Shown here: one piece after another, positions 21,786-26,210 of the stretch | Layout: each line of letters begins with the position of its first letter | Position numbering within the stretch: the first letter of the stretch is position 1 | Assembly (NCBI GenBank): GCA_937870915.1 | Contig: CALMZQ010000178.1 | Location: 1-44,352 of the forward strand | From: an uncultured Ignavibacteria bacterium | GTDB taxonomy: Bacteria; Bacteroidota; Ignavibacteria; Kapaibacteriales; Kapaibacteriaceae | Direction: 5' to 3' | Length of the DNA stretch: 44,352 nt | The notes under the pieces: generated by a model | The model's database searches: none | What the model was told of the DNA's origin: nothing | Seen by the model: the letters and a program-made list of their open reading frames with translations, nothing else | Translations under genes and position numbers: made by a program

Positions 21786-22127
21786 ATGCGATTTTCAGTA
21801 GAACAAGACGACGAACTGGTTGTCTTCACGATCAAAGAACCGATGCTTGACGGGACAAATGCCCCGGAGGTGAAGAGCGAACTTCTCATTCTTTGCCAGC
21901 CATCGGTAAAAGCACTCGTTGTAGACCTCTCCATGGTCCACTTCTGTGACTCACAAGGACTGTCTTCCCTTCTCCTCGCACATCGCCAGATGAAGGACCA
22001 TGAAGGTTTTGTTATCCTCGTTGGCGTGCAGGAGCAGGTACGGAATCTCTTCCGCATCTCCCAGATTGAATACCTTTTCGAGTTCCAGCCGAATGTGGCT
22101 GACGCGATAGCCTGGCTTCAGTCTTAA
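21786..22127 (+). CDS. STAS-domain anti-sigma factor antagonist
   Basis: This 113-residue protein is a lone STAS domain of the SpoIIAA/RsbV type. These proteins bind anti-sigma factor kinases in a phosphorylation-dependent partner switch. The signature ALVVDLSMVHFCDSQGLSSL contains the phosphorylatable serine at residue 56, followed by the usual GL. I start at the ATG at 21786, giving MRFSVEQDDELVVFTIKE, because the longer frame to 21732 would overlap the divergent heptosyltransferase. No anti-sigma kinase or phosphatase lies nearby, so its partners must be elsewhere. Its last 4 nt overlap the end of the convergent nuoC-like gene. Confidence 0.85.
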   Translation: MRFSVEQDDELVVFTIKEPMLDGTNAPEVKSELLILCQPSVKALVVDLSMVHFCDSQGLSSLLLAHRQMKDHEGFVILVGVQEQVRNLFRISQIEYLFEFQPNVADAIAWLQS

Positions 22128-22630
22128 TCTTTTTCCGGCAATGGAAGTGATCCCGGGATGCCCATAAGTGGGAAGTCCTTGCGGAGCGGATACAGCTGAG
22201 TACCGGAATCGTCCATAAAATCTTCCGGCATGTAGAACCGGCGTAGATCCGGATGCCCGTCAAAGATGATGCCGTACATATCGTACGTTTCACGCTCGTA
22301 CCAATTAGCGGACTCATAGACGTCCACTGCCGTAGGCACGTGTGGGGCGTCTTCTCGTACACCGATCTTTAGGCGCAACCGTGTCTTGTGTCGGATCGAG
22401 TAAAGGAAGTACACTACTTCGAATCGATCTCCCGGACGAGCCCAATCGATAGCTGTAACATCTACAAGCTGATCAAAGGCCATGTTCGGATTATCCTTGA
22501 GCTCGTGCAGCACGTCAAGCAGATCTGCCGACTTTACAACAAGTGTGAGGTCTCCGTGATGCTCAATGGTCTGCACATCTGCAGCCACGGCCTTTACAAC
22601 GTTTACGATCTCGGTAGTGGTCAGTGCCAT
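22124..22630 (-). CDS. nuoC: NADH-quinone oxidoreductase subunit C (NuoC), isolated copy
   Basis: NuoC is a 30-kDa-type subunit of the peripheral arm of respiratory complex I. The signature YERETYDMYGIIFDGHPDL, followed by RRFYMPEDF, is unmistakable. I start at the ATG at 22630 (MALTTTEIVNVVKAV), giving 168 residues, normal for a stand-alone NuoC. The longer frame to 22720 overlaps the upstream gene. None of the other nuo genes, which normally flank it, is present on either side. It lies 11 nt downstream of the fatty-acid-hydroxylase-like gene, so it is likely co-transcribed with it. It could be the only copy, relocated, or a duplicate. Confidence 0.92.
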   Translation of the reverse strand: MALTTTEIVNVVKAVAADVQTIEHHGDLTLVVKSADLLDVLHELKDNPNMAFDQLVDVTAIDWARPGDRFEVVYFLYSIRHKTRLRLKIGVREDAPHVPTAVDVYESANWYERETYDMYGIIFDGHPDLRRFYMPEDFMDDSGTQLYPLRKDFPLMGIPGSLPLPEKD

Positions 22631-22641
22631 AGTGTGATTCC

Positions 22642-23292
22642 TCAAGATTTCGGTGTGGCCGCTGGGGCTTTGCCACGTCGGCGTGCCCACTCCGGAACCG
22701 TGTTGAAGACATAGTCCCAAAGTGGATTGCTCACGCCATAGGCAGTATGGTCATCCACAAAGTGGTGCTTCATATGATATTCTTTTAAAAACCGTCCGAA
22801 TCTATTGGTCATCGGGAAATGGTGTGTTGCATAGTGAATGCTATCATAGGCAACATAGCCAAAGAGAAAGCCCGCATACAGCGAATGATGATGGGGCGAG
22901 AAAGCCCCCTTAAATGCCCAGAAAAAAATGACGGCCAAGGGCACGCTCACTAGGAGTGGCATCACAAGGCGCGTTGAATCACGCGGGTAGTCGTGATGAA
23001 TACCATGAACAAGGAAGTGCACCTTCTTTCCAAGTTTTGTAGTTGGGTGGATATGGAAGGCAAAGCGATGGATGGTATACTCAGTGAGGGTCCACGCTAG
23101 AATCCCAACGAGGAAGAACACGATAGTTGACCATAAAGGTACTTCTCCAAAACTGAGGACCATCATCCAAACGATCACGGGCACAAATACAATCACCGGA
23201 GTGATGGGATGTATATGTGAGAAATATTCAAGAACCGGGTTCTTGAATAGAGGGATCGTCTCGTCCTTGTTCGACACGAACATTGCACACAT
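22642..23292 (-). CDS. Sterol desaturase/fatty acid hydroxylase-family membrane protein (fatty acid 2-hydroxylase-like)
   Basis: This 216-residue integral membrane protein belongs to the di-iron fatty acid hydroxylase superfamily. It has about four hydrophobic helices and the expected histidine clusters in order: EYTIHRFAFH, FLVHGIHHDYP, IHYATHHF and YHMKHHFVDDH. The WTLTEYTIHRFAFHIHP context and overall order match FA2H/Scs7 proteins without a cytochrome b5 domain. Those enzymes add a 2-hydroxyl to acyl chains, often of sphingolipids. Substrate here is inferred, not shown. The ATG at 23292 is preceded by AAGGG and by a TATTTTTG -7-like element. It is followed by nuoC after 11 nt. Confidence 0.87.
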   Translation of the reverse strand: MCAMFVSNKDETIPLFKNPVLEYFSHIHPITPVIVFVPVIVWMMVLSFGEVPLWSTIVFFLVGILAWTLTEYTIHRFAFHIHPTTKLGKKVHFLVHGIHHDYPRDSTRLVMPLLVSVPLAVIFFWAFKGAFSPHHHSLYAGFLFGYVAYDSIHYATHHFPMTNRFGRFLKEYHMKHHFVDDHTAYGVSNPLWDYVFNTVPEWARRRGKAPAATPKS

Positions 23293-23342: not shown

Positions 23343-23843
23343 TCATTCTAGACCTAGAGCCCTGTGCATATCGTCGCCATAATCTGTTAGGATCTCCTCA
23401 CCCGCCTTAATGCGCTTTGTGGCAACAATCCAGATCCGACCGCCAAAATTGACGTATTCGGCATTGGGTTTCTTACCGGAGCCGTGATAGTCACAAGCAT
23501 ACCGCGCCACCCCACTACTGGTCTTACGGGCATCAATGACGTATTTCTCGGACAGTTGGATACCATACGAGCCCATGTTGTCCTTGTCATACCTACGGTC
23601 ATATTGATCCGTGGTGAGCTTCTCACCGGAATATTCTACGATCCGCTCGTCTGCCACAAATGTCCGAATCGCAAACATCCCCAAGCCAGCCTTGGGGATA
23701 TTGCTCTTTTGGATCGTTATTCCCAGATGCTCCCGGGTATGCTGACCGCAGAACGGGTGGGTTATGGTGGTCATGCGCTTACAACGGCCGTTATCGCCAA
23801 CATGAGCACAACGGCGTGTGACGTTCACTGAGTGTCGTTTCAT
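23343..23843 (-). CDS. SET-domain protein with zinc-binding-like N-terminus
   Basis: SET domains transfer methyl groups from S-adenosylmethionine to protein lysines. They are common in eukaryotes and patchy in bacteria. Here residues about 40-160 form the SET core, starting with IPKAGLGMFAIRTF and ending with AGEEILTDYGDD. The usual NHS-type cofactor/knot motif between them is not recognisable: the region reads ARYACDYHGSGKKPNAEYV. The N-terminus holds Cys12, Cys21, Cys32 and His35 (C-x8-C-x10-C-x2-H), a likely zinc knuckle resembling eukaryotic C3H-type motifs. The ATG at 23843 has no Shine-Dalgarno, and a TATATTCG element ends 6 nt upstream. The substrate is unknown. Acquisition by transfer is possible. 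Confidence 0.82.
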   Translation of the reverse strand: MKRHSVNVTRRCAHVGDNGRCKRMTTITHPFCGQHTREHLGITIQKSNIPKAGLGMFAIRTFVADERIVEYSGEKLTTDQYDRRYDKDNMGSYGIQLSEKYVIDARKTSSGVARYACDYHGSGKKPNAEYVNFGGRIWIVATKRIKAGEEILTDYGDDMHRALGLE

Positions 23844-23885: not shown

Positions 23886-26210
23886 TCAGAACCGAATGTC
23901 TAGCATCACCACAAAATTCCTGGTCGCTTGCACAAAATAGGTGGGTACAAGTACGCCTTCTGCCATAGCCGACCCACCATTTGTGACTACAAAGGCATTG
24001 AAGAGGTTATTGGCCATCACTCCCACTCTATGCTTGCCAGCAACGTTCCACCACAGCCGTGCATCCACCTGCGTAAAGGATGGGATAACAACGGAGGGGG
24101 CGTTAGTGAGGTCTGCGTAGGACTCGCCTACATACCGTGCTGCAAGATGAATCTCTAGCGGCTCTATGGGACGGAATCGCAGGGTTGCGTTAGTCTGGAG
24201 ACTCGGCGTGAGGACGGGACGAACGTTGGTATAGACTGTGTCGAAGCCAAGATTCTCCGGTTGGTATTCATCAACCGTGGCCTGCATCACCGTTCCATTC
24301 AGGTCGAACCATAGCCGGTCAGCGATCAACAGGACCGACCCTTCGATCTCTATTCCACGTCTACTGCTCGTGGGAACATTCTTCCTTAGTTGCACAAACT
24401 GCTGATCAATGTATGGTCCAATGGGAGCGATCTCGTCTGTGAAGAACATCGCAAAGGCATTCACATCGAGGTAACCATAGGATGCCTGGAATCTTGCTCC
24501 AAGTTCTATGTCGTTTACAAACTCCGGACGTACCGTTCCCGGATTCTGGACCACAGCCAAGTTTGCTTGGTTGATCTGTGTTGAGCCCAGCAGGTCAAAT
24601 CGTGTAGGTTCACGGCCCGTACGCCCAAATGATGCATAAACATTGGCATTTGTGGCCACATCATATCGCAATCCCAAACGAGGGTTGATGAAGAACCAGG
24701 TACTATTGGGGATCTCAACTCCAGAACCAATACTTCGTTCATCGGGAGTGAACATCATGGAGATCGAACGCACCTGGACATCTGCGAATGCCTCCCACGA
24801 TTCACCGTGGTACTTCACTCGCAGAGTCCCGCTTAGCTCGTTCTTCGTTGTACGATCATCATAGTACGGCCGAGCCGATTCTGGGCTAACGTATTCCCAG
24901 TTTCTTCGCTCGAATGTGTAGGCGTGAACTCCAACCGATGCGTCGAGACCGGTAAGGACGTCCTCTATCTCCAGCGCCGACATCACGCCGAGGTGATTAT
25001 TCTGCAAGGGATAATTGATCTGAACGAGCGTACTGTTTTCGTCGCGATATCCAGAGAAGAAATCTCCTCCTGCCCTACCGTAATAGATGGAGGTGGTGAG
25101 CGTACTACCAGGAGAGAATGCGTGACTGTGTTGCAATTGCAGTAACTGTTGACCAAAATCATCAGCGTCCGTGCTGTCATTGAGATTGGTTCTCGGGTCA
25201 CTATCGGCAAGGGGCTTTGGCACCGGATAATACCCCAGTTCATTTTGTGAAGAGCCCCATACATACGAGAGCTTGATCACGTCATGTACACCGAACCATG
25301 CTGCAGAGGCATAGAGAGAGTTTGATGTTGACCCGGTGTGATAGCGATATCCGTCCGTGCGCAACGTTGTGAATCGAGCATAGACGCTCACGTCATTCTC
25401 CATACGTCCGGTAGACACGGCTGCGCTACCCCGTATGAGATTGAACGACCCTGCTGTAAGCTGCATCTCTGCCGAGGGGTCGGCGTTTGTGAGCGTTACT
25501 CCATCAAAATTCACCGAACCAGCATACGAGGCCGTGCCATTGCTACTCATCCCTGTACCGCGTTGCACCTGGATCGATCGCATGCCATTCGACAGGTCAC
25601 TCATGTTGGAAAAGAACACACCTTGGTCGATCATGTCATTGATCGGTGTTCCATCTAGCGTAACGTTCACGCGCGTTTGATCTATGCCACGCATGCGAAA
25701 CGTTCCGTAGTTCGCAACGGCCGTGCCCGACTCCGAATACGATATCACGGAAGGAACAGCACGTTCAAGGATGTACTGCGGATCTTGGCCAATGTAGAGT
25801 TGGTCCATCATCTCCCGCGTTACTGTTGTTTGCGTTACAGGATCTTGCTCTCCCGCACGGAAACTCGTAACAACGATACCTTGCGCGAGAACGGACGACT
25901 CCTCAAGGACGATAGCGAAATCCTGCGCAGAGTCCTTTGCAACGAATGTGCGTTGCTGCGGCTCATAGCCAACACATGTGATCAAAAGGCGTACAGAATC
26001 GCCCCCTGGAATATCGATTCGAAACCAGCCGCGAGCATCAGTATATGCCCCTCGTTGGGTTCCCAAGAGCTGGATCGTTGCTCGAACGATAGGTTGAGAT
26101 CGAGTATCGCGCACCGAACCCGAAAGCGTAACAGATCGCTGGGCCATGGTGGGCCCAGACGTAACCAGACACAGCAGTGTCAGGCAAAAGAAAGAAATGA
26201 ACGTCTGCAC
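23886..26210 (-). CDS. TonB-dependent outer-membrane receptor, predicted thiamine transporter
   Basis: This 774-residue receptor imports a substrate across the outer membrane using TonB energy. A signal peptide (cleavage near PTMAQ) is followed by a carboxypeptidase-regulatory-like domain (about 27-110; VTLSGSVRDTRSQPIVRATI), the plug (about 115-240; TFRMRGIDQTRVNVTLDGTP) and a 22-strand-type barrel ending in an aromatic (VVMLDIRF). The start is GTG at 26210, with GAGG 7 nt upstream. The ATG at 26223 is out of frame. A complete TPP riboswitch aptamer precedes it, so thiamine or a thiamine precursor is the predicted substrate and the gene should be repressed when TPP is abundant. Similar TPP-controlled TonB receptors are known in Bacteroidota. 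Confidence 0.92.
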   Translation of the reverse strand: MQTFISFFCLTLLCLVTSGPTMAQRSVTLSGSVRDTRSQPIVRATIQLLGTQRGAYTDARGWFRIDIPGGDSVRLLITCVGYEPQQRTFVAKDSAQDFAIVLEESSVLAQGIVVTSFRAGEQDPVTQTTVTREMMDQLYIGQDPQYILERAVPSVISYSESGTAVANYGTFRMRGIDQTRVNVTLDGTPINDMIDQGVFFSNMSDLSNGMRSIQVQRGTGMSSNGTASYAGSVNFDGVTLTNADPSAEMQLTAGSFNLIRGSAAVSTGRMENDVSVYARFTTLRTDGYRYHTGSTSNSLYASAAWFGVHDVIKLSYVWGSSQNELGYYPVPKPLADSDPRTNLNDSTDADDFGQQLLQLQHSHAFSPGSTLTTSIYYGRAGGDFFSGYRDENSTLVQINYPLQNNHLGVMSALEIEDVLTGLDASVGVHAYTFERRNWEYVSPESARPYYDDRTTKNELSGTLRVKYHGESWEAFADVQVRSISMMFTPDERSIGSGVEIPNSTWFFINPRLGLRYDVATNANVYASFGRTGREPTRFDLLGSTQINQANLAVVQNPGTVRPEFVNDIELGARFQASYGYLDVNAFAMFFTDEIAPIGPYIDQQFVQLRKNVPTSSRRGIEIEGSVLLIADRLWFDLNGTVMQATVDEYQPENLGFDTVYTNVRPVLTPSLQTNATLRFRPIEPLEIHLAARYVGESYADLTNAPSVVIPSFTQVDARLWWNVAGKHRVGVMANNLFNAFVVTNGGSAMAEGVLVPTYFVQATRNFVVMLDIRF

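Follow-up and report, generated by a model that had tools for sequence, protein, structure and literature searches.

Is a small SET-domain protein with a cysteine-rich N-terminal module a resident gene of the bacteria that encode it, where did its parts come from, and what might it do? The question is raised by a gene in a 44,352-nucleotide stretch of DNA (the window), which is one contig of a 3.3-Mb draft genome of a Kapaibacterium-like member of the Bacteroidota. An initial annotation had described the product as a SET-domain protein with a zinc-knuckle N-terminus and a divergent NHS motif, and considered this architecture possibly unusual for bacteria. The exact C-x8-C-x10-C-x2-H (CCCH) spacing, the replaced NHS segment, and the match to the SET profile PF00856 bear out that description, except for the term zinc knuckle. 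Zinc knuckles have the pattern C-x2-C-x4-H-x4-C (CCHC), and this label was rejected because the spacing differs. Coordinates of the gene, its motifs, and its neighbors are given in Table 1.

Table 1. The CCCH-SET gene, its motifs, and neighboring genes in the window
Feature	Position	Strand	Description or basis
CCCH-SET protein gene	23343..23843	minus	166 aa, ATG at 23843, stop codon included; ORF call, homologues
Putative zinc module C12-x8-C21-x10-C32-x2-H35	23739..23810	minus	Ligands invariant in 21/21 of alignment and 26/26 of module set; resembles bacterial DUF5763-like tails
SET core, residues 42-156	23376..23720	minus	PF00856 over 53-156; fold match MLL3 SET
SET motif I G53-L-G55	23679..23687	minus	21/21 members
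SET motif II Y71-S-G73 (YxG)	23625..23633	minus	21/21 members
Replaced SET motif III RYACDYHGSGKKPN, residues 114-127	23463..23504	minus	R114, C117, G121, S122, N127 in 21/21; alignment with ANDAxG SETs
SET motif IV E150-I-L-T-D-Y155	23379..23396	minus	E150, D154, Y155 in 21/21; position 153 is the Phe/Tyr switch
Upstream neighbor, TonB-dependent receptor	23886..26210	minus	PF00593
Downstream neighbor, fatty acid hydroxylase-like protein	22642..23292	minus	PF04116
Further neighbor, NADH dehydrogenase 30 kDa subunit (NuoC type)	22124..22720	minus	PF00329

The called NuoC-type ORF overlaps the hydroxylase gene, so its true start is probably internal. No likely substrate of the SET protein was seen among the Pfam assignments of the window neighbors. 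Compared with the five relatives tried, the CCCH-SET gene had dN values of 0.10-0.19; dS was not computable and was read as saturated.

Distribution and gene order of the CCCH-SET family

Across the order, 32 of 123 genomes matched at E 0.001 or better. The CCCH-SET gene was found in 21 of 23 genomes of the family to which the window belongs (f1) and in all eight genomes seen of a second family of the same order (f3). In two f1 genomes (G016 and G020), contig ends divide the gene. Neither of the two f1 misses shows gene loss, since neither genome has an intact locus: in G002 the contig ends inside the upstream TonB gene, before the SET site, and G022, which is 80% complete, had no close match to that TonB gene. 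A search for the hydroxylase gene, run without a positive control, gave no match in either of these genomes. The other matching genomes of the order (G051, G079, and G110) encode SETs without the module (L046, L065, and L064, respectively).

Phylum-wide, a SET match was present in 56 of 395 genomes, 15 of which belong to f1 or f3; the other 41 matches begin at profile position 28 or later and thus do not cover the first two cysteines. None of 22 distinct SET frames that lie outside the family, taken from the order, the phylum, one phage, and two plasmids, had the CCCH pattern. Within the genomes searched, the CCCH-SET architecture is confined to two families of one order. Searches of the open-licence literature returned no description of this architecture, nothing joining 'Kapabacteria' with 'SET domain', and no mention of DUF5763. 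The family therefore represents, as far as that literature goes, a known domain in an undescribed combination, conserved and with its own variant of motif III. These data support in part the suggestion of an unusual architecture, but not as regards the SET domain itself, which is frequent; the accompanying view that SET methyltransferases are mostly eukaryotic is outdated, given the number of phylum genomes with a match.

CCCH-SET genes are present in one copy per genome. The window genome has a single SET gene, and two f3 genomes (G033 and G044) carry additional SET genes of other kinds. Of the 14 f1 loci counted, 13 have a TonB receptor gene immediately upstream of the SET gene, and 13 have the hydroxylase gene at most three genes downstream. 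In f3, the gene directly upstream encodes an 8-oxoguanine glycosylase-like protein (5/5 loci). These counts leave out two of 21 loci (L099 and L108), in which the SET gene is present (L022 and L043). Single copy number, near-universal presence, and a gene order that is fixed within each family fit a resident, chromosomal gene.

The closest named records were metagenome genomes titled Candidatus Kapaibacterium, Ignavibacteria, Bacteroidetes, or Melioribacter roseus, and NCBI taxonomy places Kapaibacterium within Bacteroidota. One record titled Bradyrhizobiaceae (JAGFIZ010000089.1, L010) encodes the same SET protein as the f1 genome G019 and is probably mislabelled.

A conserved SET core with a replaced motif III

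The window protein matched PF00856 with 56.3 bits (cut-off, 22.4; E 4.9e-15), and the profile was matched in all 21 aligned family members, an alignment that spans homologues down to 45% identity. Among solved structures, the best matches of the SET core were KMT2 and EZH2 domains, with KMT2C as a PDB profile match at E 3.7e-15. AlphaFold predicted a SET fold, with a mean pLDDT of 64.4 in a first model and 65.5 in a second; over residues 41-150 of the second, ten-residue means ranged from 66 to 94. VIA-align superposed the first model on the MLL3 SET domain with Z 13.3 and rmsd 2.2 (111 residues aligned), and a Foldseek search with the model of the window protein returned 372 chains at E 0.001 or better. 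The PRDM PR domain profile (PF21549) remained below its cut-off of 27 bits (18.4 for the window protein; best seen, 21.1), and the PRDM2 PR domain was matched below cut-off in 17 of 21 members. A PHROGs search with the window protein gave a single match, at E 0.22.

The available text of PMC3585878 describes four SET motifs, I (GxG), II (YxG), III (RFINHxCxPN), and IV (ELxFDY), of which I, III, and IV contact S-adenosylmethionine (SAM). All residues listed as invariant in Table 1, as well as Gly156, were identical in the 21 aligned members, and six of six further f3 members (L040-L045) kept the CCCH ligands, the cysteine at position 117, and the D-Y-G of motif IV. The canonical motif III is not matched by RYACDYHGSGKKPN, which retains of it the R, the Y/F, and the final N (mostly PN) alone. 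The NHS segment of the window protein reads CDYHGSGKKPN, in which Cys117 occupies the site of the NHS asparagine. Cysteine was found there in 27 of 27 members checked (as CDY, CSY, or CTY), and asparagine was retained in 22 of 22 bacterial or phage SETs from outside the family, as judged by eye. The window protein is still filed as a SET by fold and profile because other SETs also depart from motif III. Yeast SET3, for instance, has RRSCQPN instead of NHSCDPN and is without methyltransferase activity, according to the text available from PMC2474616.

The Phe/Tyr switch of motif IV is occupied by threonine in 16 members, alanine in two, serine in two, and glycine in one. In yeast Set1 the corresponding residue is Tyr1052, and F, A, or V at that position led to more H3K4 trimethylation (PMC3585878, available text). 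Because motifs I, II, and IV are intact and the switch is T, A, S, or G, we infer that the CCCH-SET protein may be catalytically active and may transfer more than one methyl group. Against this reading, a motif that contacts SAM is without its asparagine and histidine, and by analogy with the inactive yeast SET3 this could mean a loss of activity.

Relatives and ancestry of the SET core

Outside the family, the highest-scoring relatives were Bacteroidota SETs with the signature ARYANDAxG...NNAEY (hhalign E 4.5e-29 over residues 42-163). These ANDAxG SETs (class B; L047-L054, a phage record, and 11 viral contigs) share with the family the SET core, a lengthened loop after motif III, and Y-G in motif IV, but they keep the asparagine (ANDA) where the family has cysteine, and none of the nine read has the CCCH pattern. 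Canonical NHS-type bacterial SETs (class A; L046, L056, L058, L063, and others) are also small and come from the same phylum or order or from Burkholderia-group plasmids; they differ from the family in having NH in motif III and no CCCH pattern.

A tree was computed from 45 rows, comprising 22 family members (from 29 genomes having the gene), eight class B, 11 class A, and four eukaryotic SETs. Class A and class B rows were the better-scoring order and phylum matches, plus one phage and two plasmid rows; one of nine class B rows (L050) and the class A rows L060, L062, and L065 were left out. The CCCH-SET family formed one clade (100/98) that adjoined the ANDAxG SETs, a placement that is not firm (84/78). 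A branch supported at 98/90 parted the family side from 10 of the 11 canonical-type bacterial SETs and the four eukaryotic SETs; the eleventh, L055, which has a very long branch, fell on the family side. Phylogeny had been proposed as a check for eukaryotic transfer, and a clade of the CCCH-SET family with the four eukaryotic SETs was rejected (p-AU 0.0145), a result that bears on those four sequences, the eukaryotic sampling being thin.

Mobile elements were considered as sources and rejected. For phages, no close relative was confirmed in viral contigs (three stretches fit a pattern, none confirmed), and one phage record matched, at 29.7% identity. For plasmids, 28 records matched, all at less than 60% identity. 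SETs of the ANDAxG class occur in a 642-kb uncultured phage record (L126, LR756502.1 206871-210218) and in the 11 viral contigs (L169-L179). On a Burkholderia savannae plasmid (L128, NZ_CP013419.1 47320-50781), the annotated gene before the SET gene belongs to the H-NS family.

The N-terminal CCCH module

The four ligands lie within the first 40 residues of the window protein, and their spacing is exactly that given in the initial annotation. The pattern C-x8,9-C-x10-C-x2-H appeared in 10 of 200,000 shuffles of the window protein, and among the 34 ORFs of the window it is present in the SET ORF only. The f3 members seen have C-x9-C spacing, except L045, which has C-x8-C. From its four conserved ligands the module is predicted to bind zinc. 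Its pLDDT was below 50 at residues 1-18 and 23-31 of the first AlphaFold model and at residues 1-32 of the second; because it is modelled so poorly, its fold and contacts are not visible, and the SET fold matches say little about it. A PDB search with the module alone gave no matches at E up to 10.

With a profile built from 26 modules, E values of 2.9e-10 or better were reached at 29 places in f1 and f3 genomes. G029 came next (4.0e-5), followed by G022 and G018 (near 0.005, amid weak and mostly chance-like places). All three are CCCH tails (...RQCSAITTKGTRCKRMTSNVSGLCWQHER and ...CRAFTQKGPQCKRMTKNTSGYCWQHER) at the C-termini of secreted- or membrane-looking proteins, and the two tails match DUF5763 (PF19067) below its cut-off. 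DUF5763 was present in nine of 198 phylum genomes. Aligned by hhalign with eight bacterial tails, the SET module gave 95.7% and a score of 37.2 (36.5 in a rerun), compared with a maximum of 21.1 and a mean of 12.0 for 40 control tail sets in which C and H were fixed and the other columns shuffled. The result is favored by the choice of tails, since two of the eight had been found with the module profile; the other six came from the DUF5763 search. The CCCH module thus appears, at the sequence level, to resemble a portable bacterial tail module beyond its C/H frame. The closest tails share C-x9-C-x10-C-x2-H and CKRMT...C..H with the SET module. They belong to proteins without a SET domain, in many of which they form the C-terminus, whereas the SET module is N-terminal, and the THP before the third cysteine, invariant in the CCCH-SET family, is missing from the eight tails.

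The likeness to eukaryotic zinc motifs that had been proposed for the module found no support, as the best profile match obtained was to these C-terminal tails of unrelated bacterial proteins, and the eukaryotic WRC and SCA7 domains stayed below cut-off. WRC (PF08879, plant-type) was matched below cut-off in nine of 21 members (best, 20.0 bits against 28.6, for the L024 module alone), and SCA7 in one member. Searched alone against Pfam, the window module had no match, including to DUF5763 and WRC, and the L029 module matched DUF5763 (9.7 bits; cut-off, 26.3), DUF5061 (14.8), and SCA7 (14.7; cut-off, 23), all below cut-off. These weak matches to eukaryotic WRC and SCA7 speak against a bacterial label for the module and show how difficult it is to distinguish CCCH modules of such small size.

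Four related, secreted-looking f1 proteins of ~270 aa (L129, G018:C10:51500-53500; L130; L165; and L168) carry a CCCH tail (CxRxT...C.QH), as does a membrane-type protein unrelated to them (L131).

Candidate targets

The available text of PMC3980110, a review, describes prokaryotic SETs that act on nucleoid proteins of their own cells, chlamydial cpnSET on Hc1 and archaeal Go1-SET on MC1-alpha. Their likeness to the CCCH-SET protein is one of description; the word zinc is absent from that review, and the CCCH-SET protein has a putative zinc module. Of 122 genomes searched in the order, 53 have Hc1, including the eight f3 genomes seen, but none of the 53 is an f1 genome. It was rejected as a target shared by f1 and f3, since a protein missing from f1 cannot be their common target. 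Hc1 (histone H1-like) is present in most families of the order and in no f1 genome, as if lost there.

HU-family proteins were found in 30 of 30 genomes searched. All 17 f1 HU sequences read, out of 18 f1 loci retrieved, have a terminal tail rich in lysine and alanine, and the HU of the window genome has a K/A/P-rich tail end, KKAAPKKAAPKKAAAKKKK. Lysine-rich HU tails also occur in f4, f7, and f10, whose listed members have no SET match. Since genomes with such tails may or may not carry a SET gene, HU cannot be taken for more than a candidate. The initial annotation named no target for the protein, and we agree; as a guess, nucleoid proteins with lysine-rich tails, HU among them, would be the first to consider. 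HU proteins with long K/A/P-rich tails were seen in several families of the order (L147, L149, L153, and others). Such tails are reminiscent of eukaryotic H1 or mycobacterial HupB.

Proposed function and alternative explanations

We favor, with moderate confidence, the interpretation that the CCCH-SET protein is a resident, not an injected, protein-lysine methyltransferase with its own docking module. Its SET core would bind SAM and a target lysine, and the N-terminal C3H module would bind one zinc ion and dock the enzyme on its target, which may be a protein or a nucleic acid. The change in motif III, asparagine to cysteine with a longer loop, would reflect remodelling of the SAM pocket, the active site being intact in other respects. 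A bolder version, in which the protein is a family-wide, zinc-guided methyl-lysine writer on the cell's own nucleoid, for example on the HU tail, with the SAM pocket rebuilt around the invariant cysteine, strikes us as rather unlikely. As to ancestry, the simplest reading is a fusion of two bacterial parts, a portable C3H module and a SET core; it would have taken place either in the common ancestor of f1 and f3 or within one of these families, from which the other then received it.

The protein might instead be a SET fold that is no longer catalytic, in which the changes to motif III have done away with SAM binding and a zinc-assisted binding scaffold remains. The cysteine found at the NHS site in every member checked, where the other bacterial or phage SETs have asparagine, and the precedent of inactive yeast SET3 (PMC2474616, available text) speak for such a scaffold. 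The invariance of GxG, YxG, E150, D154, and Y155 in all aligned members is hard to explain without catalysis, however, and the remainder of motif III varies already among the closest bacterial SETs; we regard the scaffold as doubtful.

The protein could also be a secreted effector that, in the manner of known nucleomodulins, methylates histones in a eukaryotic host or prey organism; this is suggested by the KMT2 and EZH2 matches of the core and by a weak match to the NCBIfam equivalog model for injected SET effectors of the AnkI/LegAS4 type, whose cut-off was not reached (33.3 bits against 550). Since the same solved structures are also matched by bacterial SETs of the ANDAxG class, such matches are typical of SETs in general, and presence in nearly all f1 and all f3 genomes seen, at a fixed place in the gene order, is unlike an accessory effector. 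We consider this very unlikely. A eukaryotic origin, with the SET gene and its zinc module acquired as one, could draw on the sub-cut-off matches to WRC, SCA7, and the PRDM2 PR domain. The tree, with its four eukaryotic rows, and the module comparison both disfavor such a transfer: the family is a single clade beside class B, if not firmly so, grouping with those four eukaryotic sequences was rejected, and the likeness of the module to bacterial tails extends past the C/H ligands. Eukaryotic acquisition therefore appears very unlikely, with some room left for donors from other eukaryotic lineages.

Implications

A SET protein of 166 residues that is kept in nearly every genome of a family could show what roles SET methyltransferases have for bacteria themselves, rather than for pathogens. 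The presence of a CCCH module beside a SET core need not mean transfer from eukaryotes. The CCCH-SET family is also a natural setting in which to ask if a SET enzyme can work when the NHS asparagine is missing and, if so, by what means. If a methyl-lysine writer acting on the nucleoid proved true, it would be a home-grown bacterial counterpart of histone methylation.
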